From positions 186,001 through 250,000 of the forward strand of contig NZ_RCOG02000002.1 in assembly GCF_009663685.2 (NCBI RefSeq): 64,000 nt of DNA, written 5' to 3'. The DNA comes from Cupriavidus sp. U2 (GTDB lineage: Bacteria > Pseudomonadota > Gammaproteobacteria > Burkholderiales > Burkholderiaceae). Positions within the stretch are counted from its first letter, which is position 1. Every line of letters starts with the position of its first letter. The notes below the pieces were generated by a model. That model searched no databases and was not told where the DNA came from. It saw only the letters and a program-made list of their open reading frames with translations. Shown here one piece after another: positions 961 to 5,686 of the stretch. The position numbers were made by a program, and so were the translations under genes.

Positions 961-2694
961 ATGTGGCCGCGTTCGCAATCTTCTTCTGCCCCGCCTGGCG
1001 ATGCGAGCGCCACGGGCAAGCGCGCACGCGGCGGACGCAGCCGTGCCGGCGCGGCGGCACGCGGCACATCGAACCCCAGCCTGCGCATCCACCTGCTGCG
1101 CGCGCTGGCCACGCCGCTGTTCGCGCTGGTGCTGACCAGCGGATCGCTGTCGTACTGGCTGGCGGCGCACTACACCACGCAGGTCTTCGATCGCGCACTC
1201 TATGGCGTGGCCAACAACATTGCCCAGCAGATCCGCATTGCGGGTCCGCGGCTGGAGCAGGACATCCCGATCATCGCCCAGACGCTGGTCGAGGCCGAGG
1301 GCACCGACCGCATCTACTGGCGCATTCATGGTCCGGACGGGCTGATCGGCGGCATGGACACCTGGCTGGGCTACGGCACGGGCCAGACATCGCTGCACGA
1401 TGCCCGCCTGTTCTACGCGTGGTTCAGCGGCCGCCAGGTGCGCGCGGTGCGCCTGCCGGTGAGCCTGCCCAGCCCGGCCGCCGACGAACTGGCAACGACG
1501 CCGTCCGAGGCGCAGATTCCGCGCGGGCCGATCGTGGTCGAGGTGGCCGAACTGCTGGACCGGCGCGAAACGGCCGCCAACGAGATCCTGCTGTCGGTGT
1601 CGGTGCCGCTGATCCTGCTGCTGCTGGTGGGCAGCCTGATCCTGTCGCACGTGCTCAAGGAAGAACTGGTGCCGCTGCAGATCCTGACCGACAAGCTGAA
1701 CCGCCAGACCGCGCGGTCACTGGCGGCGCTGGACGAGACCCAGGTGCCGGCCGAGGTCGAGCCGCTGATCCGCGCCCTGAACGCGCTGCTGTCGCGCCTG
1801 CGCGATGCCCTCGATGCCCAGCGCAAGTTCATCGCCGACGCCGCGCACCAGTTGCGCACGCCGCTGACGGCGGTGAAGCTGCATGCCGACCGCGCCGTGG
1901 AAGCCGATTCGCTCGATGTGGCGCGTCATGCGCTGCGCGAGGTGCAGACCGCCGCCGACCGCGCGGTGCGCCTGTCGAACCAGTTGCTGTCGCTGGCGCG
2001 CGCGGAGCCCGGCCTGTCGCTGGAGCGGCTGGGCCCGGTCGAACACTTCGACCTGGCGGAACTGGCGTTCGAGATTGGCGCGGAATGGGTGCCCCAGGCA
2101 CTGGCGCGGCGTGTGGACCTGGGCTTCGAGGTACTGCCCGGCCCCACGTTCACCGGCGGGGCCCCGGCCGTGGTGCGCGGCAACCGGCTGCTGATGCGCG
2201 AGGCGCTGTCCAACCTGATCGATAACGCGGTGAAGTATGTGCCGGCCGGTGGACGCATTACGGTGCGCGCCGGCGGCGAGGCCATGGGCCACCGTGGCAT
2301 GGCCGTGGTGATGGTGGAAGACAACGGCCCCGGCATTCCGCCGGCCCGCCGCGAGGAGGTGTTCAAACGCTTCTTCCGCGGCGATCACACACCCGGCACG
2401 CCCACCCTGCAGGCTTCGCCCGGCGGAGCCGGCCTGGGTCTGGCCATCGTCCACGAGATCATCACCCTGCACCAGGGCACGATCCGGATCGAGGATGTGC
2501 CGGCGTCCGCCGCCGCGTCCGTCCCGGTCACGCCGGCCATGGCCGGCGGGCCGGACGATGGTGCGGGCGCGGTTTCGCCGCATGCCCCCGCATCGCCGGA
2601 AACGTCCGCATCGTCGAATGCGTCGGCACGCCGCGCGTCGATGCGCTTCGTGATCCGGATCCCGTGCGAGGCACCTGGCACCACGCCGGCCTAA
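961..2694 (+). CDS. TctE-like membrane sensor histidine kinase with a low-complexity insertion in the ATPase domain
   Basis: 577 residues. A long Ser/Ala/Arg-rich N-terminus (1-40) precedes a first membrane segment (about 45-70). A periplasmic region of the 2CSK_N type known from TctE (about 70-200) follows, then a second membrane segment (about 205-228). The HisKA motif FIADAAHQLRTPL puts the phospho-histidine near residue 296. N box (NLIDNAVKY), G1 (DNGPGIP), F box (FKRFF) and G2 (GAGLGLAIV) are all present. After RIEDV the protein inserts about 45 Ala/Pro/Ser residues before the final strand MRFVIRIP. It pairs with the regulator upstream. ATG 961 is the only plausible start before the membrane helix. 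The ligand is unknown. Confidence 0.9.
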   Translation: MWPRSQSSSAPPGDASATGKRARGGRSRAGAAARGTSNPSLRIHLLRALATPLFALVLTSGSLSYWLAAHYTTQVFDRALYGVANNIAQQIRIAGPRLEQDIPIIAQTLVEAEGTDRIYWRIHGPDGLIGGMDTWLGYGTGQTSLHDARLFYAWFSGRQVRAVRLPVSLPSPAADELATTPSEAQIPRGPIVVEVAELLDRRETAANEILLSVSVPLILLLLVGSLILSHVLKEELVPLQILTDKLNRQTARSLAALDETQVPAEVEPLIRALNALLSRLRDALDAQRKFIADAAHQLRTPLTAVKLHADRAVEADSLDVARHALREVQTAADRAVRLSNQLLSLARAEPGLSLERLGPVEHFDLAELAFEIGAEWVPQALARRVDLGFEVLPGPTFTGGAPAVVRGNRLLMREALSNLIDNAVKYVPAGGRITVRAGGEAMGHRGMAVVMVEDNGPGIPPARREEVFKRFFRGDHTPGTPTLQASPGGAGLGLAIVHEIITLHQGTIRIEDVPASAAASVPVTPAMAGGPDDGAGAVSPHAPASPETSASSNASARRASMRFVIRIPCEAPGTTPA

Positions 2695-2709
2695 ACCGGA
2701 CCGGGCGGC

Positions 2710-3225
2710 TTATTTGCCCGACTTCTCCTTGGGCGCCAGCATCGTGCCGCGGCACTTCGGGCTGCCGCAACGGCATTCGTATTCCTTCTTCAGCTTCTTC
2801 GTATAGCGTGCATCAATGACCAGGCCGTAGTCATAGAACAGCTCTTCGCCCTCGGCGATATCGCGCAGGGCGTGGATGAAGACGCGTCCCTTCTTCTCGC
2901 GCGCTTCGCAGTTCGGCTCGCAGGCGTGGTTGATCCAGCGCGCCCGGTTGCCGCCGAACTTGGCATCGATGACGTTGCCGTCGTCCAGGCTGAAATAGAA
3001 CGTGTGGTTCGGGTCCGCCGGATCGTGCGGGTGGCGCTTCAGGGCTTCCTTCCAGGAAATGTGCTCGCCCTTGTACTCGATCACGCGCTCGCCTGCCGCA
3101 ATGGCGCCAATCGCGTAGACACCCTTGCCATGCACGCCCGACTGGCGCACCTCGATACGGTCGCTGGCGGTCTTCTTGCCCGCCTGCCTCTTCTGATCCT
3201 TGGCGTCGTTGGCCTTGTCCGACAT
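2710..3225 (-). CDS. SET-domain protein (putative lysine methyltransferase)
   Basis: 171 residues. After a Lys-rich leader (1-22), the SET core runs from RIEVRQSGVHGKGVYA to LFYDYGL. It includes the RWINHACEPNCEA motif (pseudoknot N-H) and the ELFYDYG catalytic motif. A post-SET cysteine cluster, CRCGSPKCRG, follows near the C-terminus, as in eukaryotic histone lysine methyltransferases. Such small SET proteins occur in many beta-proteobacteria; their substrates are mostly unknown. The start ATG is preceded by AGGAAC. The gene is convergent with the kinase gene (16 bp gap) and is the nearest gene to hup on its upstream side. Confidence 0.9.
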   Translation of the reverse strand: MSDKANDAKDQKRQAGKKTASDRIEVRQSGVHGKGVYAIGAIAAGERVIEYKGEHISWKEALKRHPHDPADPNHTFYFSLDDGNVIDAKFGGNRARWINHACEPNCEAREKKGRVFIHALRDIAEGEELFYDYGLVIDARYTKKLKKEYECRCGSPKCRGTMLAPKEKSGK

Positions 3226-3367
3226 GTCTGATGTTCCTGCGGTGGTGGGCCGGTCCAGTCCGGAGAACCGGATGATACCCGTGCGGCTGTGTCAGGTATA
3301 CGCATCGGCGCCCGGACCGGGCCGGGCACGTTTACCGGGCACGGCGACGTATACCGGCCGGTGCCAA

Positions 3368-3398
3368 TGTGGATAACCGGGGCCATTTTTGTGGATAA
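3368..3398 (-). promoter_or_regulatory. Pair of perfect DnaA boxes (3368-3376 and 3390-3398)
   Basis: TGTGGATAA, the reverse complement of the DnaA consensus TTATCCACA, occurs twice with start-to-start spacing of 22 bp, about two helical turns. Both copies are exact. They lie inside the GTATAC array. Confidence 0.75.
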
Positions 3399-3571
3399 GC
3401 GCATGGGTTTGGTGTGGGCTGCCTGGGGCTGGCATGGGGAACGTATACGAACAACCTGGCGGGTATACGTCCCTCATCCCATCCCGAAGGATGAGTCATC
3501 CACGCGCGCCAACATGTCATCCCTGTGCTTTCGGTATACGTAAACGGTTGATCCGATTGGCGTATACCGGG

Positions 3572-3580
3572 TTATCCACA
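3572..3580 (+). promoter_or_regulatory. Perfect DnaA box
   Basis: TTATCCACA, exact, in the orientation opposite to the pair at 3368-3398. It is followed by a stretch poorer in GC than its surroundings (about 3595-3655), which would suit an unwinding region if this locus were an origin. That role is speculative. Confidence 0.7.
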
Positions 3581-4087
3581 GAAAGGCAGGGGGTTTACCT
3601 ATCACTACTATCTGTATACATGAAAGAAAGATGTAAACCATACGCAGGAGGACCGCAGCCGGTGCGTATACGGCGAACGTCCGATGCAACACAGGCGGTG
3701 CCGTCGCGATCGGCACGCTTTCACGCAAGATGAAAAATTGGGCAGGCCCCACGGGGATGGAGGCAGGCGGTATACGTCGGGCCGTCACCTGAGGCCTGAT
3801 CGCCACAATGGGCACTCGACAGCCTTGCAGCGCCGTATACAGGCCTCTCAGGGCGTATACGTCTCCTGGCCTGCCCGAGCCTCTCCGGGGCCCCAGAACG
3901 CGTCCTGGGGCGTATACGTGGCTCCAGGGCCGTATACCGCGCCCCGCCATCCTTTGGTGAGCCTGGGCGTATACCGGCGCTCCAGGCGCGCGCTTCTTTC
4001 GTAAAAAACCCGCCAACGTTGACCTGACGCGGCCTGCACGCCAAGGGCCGGTAACAAACTGTTCCCGGTGCGGCGTGTCCGACACGG

Positions 4088-4093
4088 TATGAT
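4088..4093 (+). promoter_or_regulatory. Possible -10 element of the hup promoter
   Basis: TATGAT lies 89 bp before the hup start and is the best -10-like hexamer between the end of the palindrome array and the gene. No clear -35 hexamer sits at the right distance, so this is a weak call. Confidence 0.3.
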
Positions 4094-4181
4094 GTGGCCC
4101 GCGGCGTCTTTGCCAGCGCGGCTTCCAGCGAAGTCGCCGGCCCGGACGTCAGTGTTTTTTCAACTCGATACGGAGTGAAGC

Positions 4182-4460
4182 ATGACGAAAACTGAACTGA
4201 TCGACGCGATCGCAGCAGGCGTGGACGGTCTGACCAAGGCCAAGGCCGAACAGGCCCTGAACGTGACCCTGAACGCCATCATGGATGCCGTGGCCAAGGG
4301 CGAGACCCTCAGCCTGATCGGCTTCGGTACCTTCAGCAAGGGCGAACGTGGCGAGCGCATGGCCCGCAACCCGCGCACCGGCGAAGAAATCAAGGTGGAA
4401 GCTGCGAAGACCGTGAAGTTCAAGGCAGGTCAGAAGTTCAAGGACGCCGTCAACCAGTAA
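4182..4460 (+). CDS. hup: HU-family nucleoid DNA-binding protein
   Basis: 92 residues, the normal HU length. It begins MTKTELIDAIAAGVDGLTK and carries the HU signature (GFGTFSKGERGERMARNPRTG) with the Arg/Pro DNA-binding arm at about residues 53-75. HU bends DNA, compacts the nucleoid and assists initiation of replication in other bacteria. CGGAGTGAAGC in front of the ATG is a good ribosome site. It lies between two clusters of DnaA boxes. Whether it is hupA-like or hupB-like cannot be decided here. Confidence 0.95.
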   Translation: MTKTELIDAIAAGVDGLTKAKAEQALNVTLNAIMDAVAKGETLSLIGFGTFSKGERGERMARNPRTGEEIKVEAAKTVKFKAGQKFKDAVNQ

Positions 4461-4553
4461 TGCCGACGGGCAAGCTTGTCGCCCGGTTCGCATGACCCCG
4501 CCGTGCCGCCGCCATAGCCCGAAAGCGGCGCAGGTGCGCAGCGCGCGGGGACG

Positions 4554-4562
4554 TTATCCACA
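4554..4562 (+). promoter_or_regulatory. Perfect DnaA box downstream of hup
   Basis: TTATCCACA, exact, in the 240-bp gap between hup and the DUF2272 lipoprotein gene. It is the fourth perfect box within 1.2 kb. By composition alone about 0.002 would be expected on both strands. Confidence 0.7.
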
Positions 4563-4699
4563 CCATTTTTCCCCCAGCTCCGCGTGGAGAATCGCACAGT
4601 TGGCCAGGCCCCTTCACAGGCCTGCAGCGACCACGCGAAAATGTCATCCACGCTTGGCTAATCAAGGCCTTGCGCGAGATCAGGAATCACGAGCCTGAC

Positions 4700-5686
4700 A
4701 TGTCGTTCCGCTTGCCGCAGCGCACATTTCCACAGCCTTATTCACAGCAGTTTCCACACAAACTTCCACAGCATTCTCCACAGGCACGCACGCGTACCTG
4801 GCAGGGTGCGATGGCGGTGGTGGCGCTGGCCGTCCTGTGCGGTTGCAGTACCTCGCCGACACGTACGGCCCGGCCGCAGGCCGTGCCCTTGCCCGACTAC
4901 GGGCGCGTGGCCACGCCGCCCGGCGCCACGGCGCGTGAGCGGATCGTCGATATTGCCCTGCAGGAATGGCGCAAGTGGGGCAGCCAGGTAGTGCGGATCG
5001 GTCGTGACGATTCGGCGTGCGTCACCCAGAGTCCGCTGCCCGCCCCGGCCGCCGCGCTGCCTGCCAATGGCGCCGGGGGGCAAGGCACGGCGATGCAGCC
5101 GTCAGCCGACATCGATATGGAAGAGGATGGCGACAGCCAATGCCTGCGTTTTCCCGATGGCACCGGCATGGAGGCCACGCCGCAGGGATGCCGGATGGCC
5201 CAGCGTTACTGGGGCATCGTTGGCGAGGCGCCGGACTGCCGTCAGGTCACGCAGGGCGCGTGGGCGTGGTCGGCCGTGTTCATTTCATGGGTGATGCGCA
5301 AGGCCGGGCTCGATAACGACCAGTTCCTGACGGGCCAGTCCCATTCGATGTACGTGGTGGACGCGCGCGATGGCATCCTGCCGCGCCCGGCGTTCCATGT
5401 GGAGCGGGTGCCCGCCGTGCCGCGCCCTGGCGACATGATCTGCGCGGGCCGGGGGCGTGACAAATATCTTTCGGATCCGTCCGAAATCGGCTTCGGCACC
5501 ACGCCCATGCATTGCGACATCGTGGTCGAGGTGGATCGTGCCGCCAATGTGGTCAAGGCAATCGGCGGCAACGTCCAGCAGTCGGTATCGATGGATGTGA
5601 TCGACCTGAACGACGCGGGCCAGCTCGACGGCTTCACGAATTCGCACATGCCGTGGCTGTTGATCCTGCGTAACGACCTGCAGTAA
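4700..5686 (+). CDS. DUF2272-domain lipoprotein
   Basis: From ATG 4700 the product has 328 residues; from ATG 4811 it has 291. The segment MAVVALAVLCGC followed by STS looks like a lipoprotein signal with Cys as the first mature residue. The 37 residues before it (from 4700) supply positive charge but are unusual, so the start is undecided. The DUF2272 domain begins at about ARERIVDIALQEWRKWG and includes WAWSAVFISWVMRKAGL, GDMICAGRG and MHCDIVVEV, a papain/CHAP-like arrangement of Cys and His. The function of the family is not established; envelope location is inferred from the lipobox. No operon partner is evident. Confidence 0.8.
   Translation: MSFRLPQRTFPQPYSQQFPHKLPQHSPQARTRTWQGAMAVVALAVLCGCSTSPTRTARPQAVPLPDYGRVATPPGATARERIVDIALQEWRKWGSQVVRIGRDDSACVTQSPLPAPAAALPANGAGGQGTAMQPSADIDMEEDGDSQCLRFPDGTGMEATPQGCRMAQRYWGIVGEAPDCRQVTQGAWAWSAVFISWVMRKAGLDNDQFLTGQSHSMYVVDARDGILPRPAFHVERVPAVPRPGDMICAGRGRDKYLSDPSEIGFGTTPMHCDIVVEVDRAANVVKAIGGNVQQSVSMDVIDLNDAGQLDGFTNSHMPWLLILRNDLQ
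4726..4785 (+). repeat. Five DnaA-box-like units in a strict 12-bp tandem register
   Basis: Units start at 4726, 4738, 4750, 4762 and 4774, exactly 12 bp apart. Their 9-mers are ATTTCCACA, TTATTCACA, GTTTCCACA, ACTTCCACA and TTCTCCACA. The second fits the relaxed DnaA consensus TTWTNCACA; the others keep the CCACA half. If translation of the next gene starts at 4700, the same bases encode four-residue repeats of the type F-P-Q-x. If it starts at 4811, they are non-coding iterons. Confidence 0.65.

Follow-up and report, generated by a model that had tools for sequence, protein, structure and literature searches.

A GTWWAC array at the probable replication origin of the main chromosome of Cupriavidus sp. 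U2

Results

Organization of the SET-hup intergenic region

The window analysed here is a stretch of 64,000 nucleotides from Cupriavidus sp. U2 (positions 186,001 to 250,000 of contig NZ_RCOG02000002.1, here C16). Between a SET-domain protein gene and the divergently oriented hup gene it carries three DnaA boxes, an AT-rich block and a dense array of GTWWAC palindromes (Table 1). Two of the boxes face the third one, at distances of 182 and 204 bp, and the boxes at 3368, 3390 and 3572 together span 213 nt. The order of elements in the core is DnaA box, spacer, CTACTA-type stretch, GTATAC and GTAAAC. Several words of the TTCCACA/TTCACA type, which resemble weak DnaA boxes, are located just 3' of hup (4725-4785). 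Structured RNA was considered for the region and rejected, as no Rfam family attains its gathering score within 2600-4800.

Table 1. Features of the SET-hup region and of related sites outside it. Positions are those of the window unless a contig (C) or locus (L) is given.
Feature	Position	Strand	Remarks
SET-domain protein gene, left neighbour	2710..3225	-	PF00856
Array of 18 GTWWAC (14 GTATAC, 2 GTTTAC, 2 GTAAAC)	3296..3974	no strand	predicted N6-adenine methylation sites
DnaA box 1	3368..3376	-	TTATCCACA, perfect consensus; geometry kept in 17/17 Cupriavidus regions
DnaA box 2	3390..3398	-	TTATCCACA; geometry kept in 17/17 Cupriavidus regions
DnaA box 3, head of conserved core	3572..3580	+	TTATCCACA
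CTACTA (DnaA-trio-like) stretch	3599..3613	+	flanked by DnaA box 3 and GTATAC 3614; sequence degenerate in this species
Candidate unwinding element	3601..3650	no strand	50-bp block with the highest AT content (64%) in the array
GTATAC	3614..3619	no strand	GTWWAC at the aligned position in 16/16 other Cupriavidus
GTAAAC of conserved core	3633..3638	no strand	12/16 Cupriavidus; also in Ralstonia-group and Paraburkholderia cores
hup (HU protein), right neighbour	4182..4460	+	PF00216
Additional perfect DnaA box, downstream of hup	4554..4562	+	C16:190554
Second module, 7 GTWWAC	G000 C16:45702-45919 (L085 3703-3997)		outside the window
Sites of the 8 remaining close GTATAC pairs	C15, C18, C29:41563, C30		
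DnaA boxes near GTWWAC away from oriC	L092 3515-3733; L203 15061-15292; L095 3955-4061; L090 5967-6207		

Clustering of the palindromes

The original prediction described 14 exact copies of GTATAC at 3296-3974, with fewer than 0.1 expected from base composition and with C or G on both sides of twelve of them. The count of 14 was confirmed; for 679 bp, 0.059 copies are expected from composition and 0.014 from the frequency in the remaining genome, and 12/14 copies carry the said flanks. Just one of the 15 GTATAC in the window lies outside the array, and a count of 15 was reached in 0/100 dinucleotide shuffles of the window (mean 1.89, maximum 8). The cluster is real; the motif as first described was too narrow, since two GTTTAC and two GTAAAC belong to the array, making 18 GTWWAC sites as against 7 in the remainder of the window. 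When 400 kb of the contig was examined (67 GTWWAC in all), groups of at least three sites with gaps of at most 250 bp were seen at two places only, the array (18) and C16:45702-45914 (7).

A genome-wide count had been proposed as a check on the array, and its outcome favours the original prediction. GTATAC occurs 145 times across the genome and forms 24 close pairs (gap of at most 61 bp) vs 2 for the reversed pattern, and 10 of the 24 pairs fall in this array. The rest are distributed over the second oriC-like core described below (3), the chromid origin (2), the region upstream of dnaA (1) and other places (8). Helical phasing of the GTATAC copies, also part of the original prediction, was rejected as not significant: R is 0.30 at 10.5 bp, which 28% of random placements reach. 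For GTWWAC the phasing at 10.5 bp is weak (R = 0.43, matched by 2.8% of random placements).

Conservation of the DnaA boxes and the core

Three DnaA boxes with at most one mismatch, spaced by 22 and 181-182 bp, are present in 17/17 Cupriavidus regions including the window. Opposed boxes 181-182 bp apart were found in 10/10 Ralstonia-group loci, nine of which have a third box at 204 bp, and opposed boxes 170-193 bp apart in 35/35 Paraburkholderia/Trinickia loci (179-181 bp in 33 of them, 193 bp in L062 and 170 bp in L075). The search accepted box distances of 151-229 bp and required two or more GTWWAC in the vicinity; L073, whose contig ends near the SET gene, was omitted from it. With the GTWWAC condition dropped, an opposed pair was seen in 0/18 loci of the other group, some of the contigs there being short. 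A conserved cluster of DnaA boxes, as expected of a bacterial chromosomal oriC, is therefore present.

A loose string test for the core (TTATCCACAGA with two GTWWAC in the 110 bp after it) was matched by 42/81 sequences, L011 only at a different spot; the misses include single-base changes in the box as well as the group that lacks the array. The CTACTA-type stretch reads CTACTACTACTA in L008, L010, L012-L014 and most Ralstonia-group loci. Four of the five Ralstonia-group loci tried (L022 is the exception) obey the published DnaA-trio unwinding rule. The window, 13/13 other Cupriavidus loci (L008-L020) and 3/3 Paraburkholderia loci tried do not obey it. The AT-rich block is present in the window, and a DnaA-trio is not claimed there because the strict rule failed.

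Conservation of the array

Comparison of orthologous hup-upstream regions, another check put forward with the original prediction, came out in its favour. The array is kept in 16/16 other Cupriavidus loci (among them L005, record title Ralstonia sp.), with 10-18 GTWWAC in each, at aligned identities of 52-86%. In the SET-hup intergenic regions of these 16 loci (18,331 bp), GTATAC was counted 143 times and GTAAAC/GTTTAC 95 times, where the flanks predict 0.6 and 1.8, respectively; the words enriched in these regions are GTWWAC variants. The sites are retained better than other hexamers. In the 17-sequence alignment, L006 has GTWWAC at 17/18 window sites, and of its other hexamers 46% are identical. 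Loci with 52-58% aligned identity keep 4-10/18 sites (22-56%) vs 10-15% of other hexamers, a comparison that somewhat favours the sites because a change inside WW was scored as kept; their totals are still 10-18. The sites at 3349, 3562, 3593, 3614 and 3666 are kept in 14-16/16 loci and those from 3770 onward in 1-4/16. Purifying selection differing between the outer and central positions of the sites was rejected, since the change rates are about equal, with no clear difference (293/1000 vs 171/500 changed).

Ralstonia-group loci (L021, L022 and L025, with record titles Burkholderiaceae bacterium, were grouped here) have 2-3 GTWWAC sites only, and a dense array is therefore not required. In Paraburkholderia/Trinickia 0-1 GTWWAC are found in the 1.2 kb upstream of SET, and arrays of 3-17 sites per kb lie ~4-8 kb away in 35/36 loci, the exception being L073 with its incomplete contig. 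In Paraburkholderia L046 the array is flanked by genes for a DAO-family protein and a Na/H exchanger, and no match to HU was obtained in the Paraburkholderia loci. Linkage to hup across species, expected of a hup promoter element, was thus not found. The special tie to hup suggested at the outset is not supported, the same element having other neighbours in Paraburkholderia, and a hup-specific operator was rejected because core and array occur there without hup.

Position of the probable main-chromosome origin

The link to replication and DnaA boxes that the original prediction had drawn is supported by a skew switch as well as by the conserved box geometry. The array (C16:189296-189974) is ~94 kb away from dnaA (C16:284234-285934). 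Four-fold-site skew was compared between genes of the two strands. From 100 to 189.5 kb the minus-strand genes give 0.101 and the plus-strand genes 0.013; from 189.5 to 284 kb the values are 0.089 for plus and 0.004 for minus, and from 284 to 400 kb 0.079 for plus and 0.001 for minus. The contrast is weak at 0-100 kb (minus 0.042, plus 0.026). Judged by these values, the switch coincides with the array and not with dnaA. A change of sign in the raw skew occurs at ~190-200 kb, and the four-fold minimum is near 185 kb; counting against the array as origin, the minimum of the raw cumulative skew is located 24 kb to its right, at 213.7 kb.

Among related genomes, the distance between four-fold minimum and array is 3.5-4 kb in two contigs of Paraburkholderia and ~32 kb in C. 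laharis, and the skew switch of G001 is imprecise. In Ralstonia G003 the four-fold minimum is weak and, at 1,429 kb, closer to dnaA (1,457 kb) than to the sites (1,694 kb), and the coding-strand minimum at 1,699 kb is 5 kb from the sites. A closed genome of the same genus (G052) was examined in 40 samples of 20 kb. The best two-state split is 1.90/3.79 Mb, with the wrong sign in 3/40 samples, and the array, at 3.778 Mb of 3.885 Mb, is within one sampling step of the skew switch. It is also the densest GTWWAC place sampled there (14 in 700 bp, the next having 4). Thus the GC-skew switch expected of a bacterial chromosomal oriC is found at the array, and was not seen by four-fold skew in G003.

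The region upstream of dnaA (L095) contains two GTATAC and a single perfect DnaA box; it was rejected as the main origin, as the strand-controlled skew has no switch there. The SET-hup intergenic region is best read as the oriC of the main chromosome, ~94 kb from dnaA. A similar arrangement has been reported for chromosome 1 of C. metallidurans CH34, where a stretch of 213 nt containing 3 perfect DnaA boxes precedes the skew transition, which is ~90 kb from dnaA (PMC2864759). In other accounts, the exact position of the B. cenocepacia main-chromosome origin is termed uncertain, and the NH9 paper places a dnaA homologue at the putative origin.

A predicted GTWWAC methylase is encoded in the genome

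A modification system had been named as one possible user of the palindromes, and the evidence supports it in the form of a GTWWAC methyltransferase. In C. necator H16, 95.3% of GTWWAC are reported as detected in methylated form, and the motif has been assigned to an orphan methylase. The GTWWAC enzyme of B. cenocepacia is BCAM0992 (PMC7364216), and that of R. solanacearum is described as conserved across Burkholderiaceae (PMC5390034). An orthologue of the BCAM0992-type methylase is present in this genome as a 352-aa PF01555 ORF (L119 1348-2406, G000 C8); no other PF01555 gene scores above the curated cut-off, and a further match, on C11, lies below it. Its closest PDB match is 8urk (E 4.6e-125), which we take to be M.BceJIV, an enzyme that binds two DNAs. 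The ORF sits between two others that read, by eye, as trpB and trpA. By analogy with C. necator H16, the array is presumably methylated in this strain.

Of the genomes queried, 35/35 from Cupriavidus, Ralstonia-group and Paraburkholderia loci gave a methylase match (E 1e-40 or better), 11 of these 35 being reported with stop codons inside the matched stretch, as against 0/14 from the remaining loci, a contrast that follows phylogeny. The survey covered 49/80 loci (16/16 Cupriavidus, 9/10 Ralstonia-group, 10/36 Paraburkholderia/Trinickia and 14/18 others). In the 14 methylase-free genomes the comparison covers the SET loci, which hold at most 2 GTWWAC in any 1 kb. Deletion of the GTWWAC methylase in B. 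cenocepacia is reported to cause no growth-rate difference (PMC7364216), and both methylase mutants of that species are described as having a larger nucleoid relative to the cell.

A second oriC-like core

A second core resembling that of oriC lies at C16:45727-45779, in the interval that separates tag from a LysE-family gene; its distance from oriC is 144 kb. It consists of DnaA box / GTTAAC / TACTACTACTAT / GTATAC, followed by GTAAAC. The core pattern was matched in 8/13 genomes of the window's genus (its own included) and in 0/8 of other genera, and the reversed control gave 0. Exactly two matches were seen in seven of the eight genomes and one in G053; where both cores are on one contig (3 genomes) they are 139-146 kb apart. 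All seven relatives fetched (7/7) have tag beside the second core and 6/7 have lysE, with 7-8 GTWWAC within 400 bp. One Ralstonia and two Paraburkholderia genomes also have a similar second core, at distances of 34, 52 and 86 kb from oriC; a stretch of 280 kb of C. laharis showed none. In the 40 samples of G052 the core pattern had 0 matches, a weak control because the oriC of G052 itself also escapes the pattern. The second module may possibly be a titration or reset site comparable to datA or DARS.

The putative chromid origin

Contig C29 carries repA (PF04796), parA, parB and iterons of the CH34 type, and its repA and iterons suggest that it belongs to a secondary chromosome. Among the iterons upstream of repA are 11 GTWWAC (L088 6433-7502 = C29:34432-35501; 7 GTATAC, 3 GTTTAC, 1 GTTAAC). 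The 1.5 kb upstream of the orthologous repA, a gene that is in two pieces in G009 and G015, holds 5-12 GTWWAC and 15-20 iteron-like words in 16/16 Cupriavidus; the same region holds 3-4 GTWWAC in 4/4 Ralstonia-group genomes. A RepA paralogue, 32% identical (L195), has 0 GTWWAC upstream. As the chromid origin carries a smaller GTWWAC array, one enzyme can mark both replicons.

Discussion

The simplest and most likely account of these results is an origin methylation array. We regard it as highly probable that the array is part of the oriC of the main chromosome and that an orphan methylase acts on its GTWWAC sites, a mark that may delay re-initiation. Binding of DnaA to the three boxes would lead to opening of the AT-rich stretch with CTACTA and GTATAC. 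The gene for the orphan GTWWAC adenine methyltransferase is at another genomic location; its product would methylate the 18 sites, and passage of the fork would leave these densely placed sites hemimethylated together. Until they are remethylated, the sites could flag the origin as just used and/or alter DnaA binding or DNA opening, and the hemimethylated state would delay re-initiation. Methylation would thus exert control on initiation, and with the smaller array at the chromid origin the same enzyme could serve both replicons.

In E. coli, oriC has a GATC array with Dam and SeqA, and the Dam-SeqA system may be taken as the nearest working model. The likeness consists in many palindromic N6-adenine methylation sites within an origin with DnaA boxes and in a methylase without a partner restriction enzyme. 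The differences are that the sites here are GTWWAC, not GATC, and extend over ~680 bp, that the solved relatives of the enzyme are RsrI, MboIIA and CcrM and do not include Dam, and that SeqA was found in 0/31 genomes examined (among 14 control genomes E. coli alone matches). Since the palindromes fit a methylase target, the array would represent an origin-marking system that differs from that of E. coli. We know of no reader protein of GTWWAC origin methylation.

The palindromes might alternatively bind an unidentified nucleoid or origin protein, methylation being incidental or blocked by that protein. Conservation of the sites, with turnover in part of the array, and a weak 10.5-bp periodicity of GTWWAC (reached by 2.8% of random placements) would agree with this explanation, which we nevertheless consider unlikely, because the sequence variants present correspond to the specificity of the methylase and because a methylase match was obtained in 35/35 genomes queried from loci with array or core. 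The undescribed nucleoid protein named in the original prediction is likewise not supported, the evidence speaking neither for nor against it.

Quite improbable, in our judgement, is a third explanation, in which the sites serve in promoter-regulatory methylation of hup and the divergent SET gene. It follows the interpretation of Erill et al. (2017, PMC5390034), who found three conserved methylated GTWWAC upstream of the R. solanacearum genes RS_RS16825/RS_RS16830 and ascribed to them a role in HU/SET promoter control. The gene pair and the motif are the same as here, methylation was measured there and the repA region is also listed; the sites number three there vs 18 here, and in the parts of that paper available to us the region is not interpreted as oriC. 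The array does sit between two divergent genes, and in the same intergenic region of R. solanacearum GTWWAC overlaps predicted -35 boxes (PMC5390034). However, the layout of the sites tracks the DnaA boxes, the chromid origin is likewise enriched in GTWWAC, and in Paraburkholderia L046 the array and core have DAO-family and Na/H exchanger neighbours, with no HU match in the loci of that genus. The present data thus favour oriC over the promoter reading. A compositional or repeat artefact is hardly conceivable, as 0/100 shuffles attain the count and conservation in 16/16 loci at 52-86% aligned identity refutes it; nothing speaks for it at this array, and only other clusters (C18, C29:41563) look hairpin-like by eye.

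Having weighed these alternatives, we return to the methylated origin, of which other parts have been described separately. The replicon origins of B. cenocepacia are reported as methylation-rich, with GTWWAC between the DnaA boxes (mSphere 2020, PMC7364216). The account differs from the present one in that at least two GTWWAC between boxes are given, CACAG enrichment is stressed and, in the text available, Cupriavidus is not mentioned. CH34 shares the skew switch ~90 kb from dnaA beside 213 nt with three perfect DnaA boxes and the chromid iterons; the accessible passages mention no methylation motif and no hup (PMC2864759). Portions of PMC12645576, PMC6742796, PMC4948915, PMC6379261, PMC2842291 and PMC8287927 also belong to the literature basis, and a term search in the available text of PMC11460718 gave no match. 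No paper joining the Ralstonia methylome, the CH34 skew and the B. cenocepacia origins was found in the open-access literature searched.

On this reading, a widely used genus would have its likely main-chromosome origin at SET-hup and not beside dnaA. Three separate published hints (the hyper-methylated HU region, the skew switch of CH34 and the methylated origins of B. cenocepacia) are joined in one testable model, that of origin marking by a non-Dam methylase on two replicons at once and without SeqA. A wider proposal is offered tentatively, as a possibility with clearly less than even prospects: origin licensing in Burkholderiaceae could proceed without Dam and SeqA, one GTWWAC methylase marking the chromosome origin, the chromid origin and the second core (139-146 kb off; titration or reset), and hemimethylation could time and couple initiation of both replicons through a putative reader protein or the methylase itself. 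For finding a betaproteobacterial protein that reads hemimethylated origins, the array offers a probe that is ready to use.

DnaA boxes and GTATAC clusters at other places

Away from oriC, 13/29 DnaA boxes in five stretches are within 250 bp of a GTWWAC vs 1.6 expected, and for the control CAWWTG the figure is 9/29 vs 4.8; the oriC stretch of each genome was excluded from the count. The same was seen upstream of dnaA and at a site preceding a gene that by eye resembles xseA. The GTATAC clusters at C18 and C29:41563 were set aside, being hairpin-like by eye and placed beside gene ends. Runs of CGTATACGTATACGCGTATACG, hairpin-like by eye, occur near gene ends at L087 3742-3796 and L088 13564-13583. 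One such run is directly 3' of a gene for an HtrA-type protease, and the CGTATACGTATACGCGTATACG runs are probably unrelated to the origin arrays.
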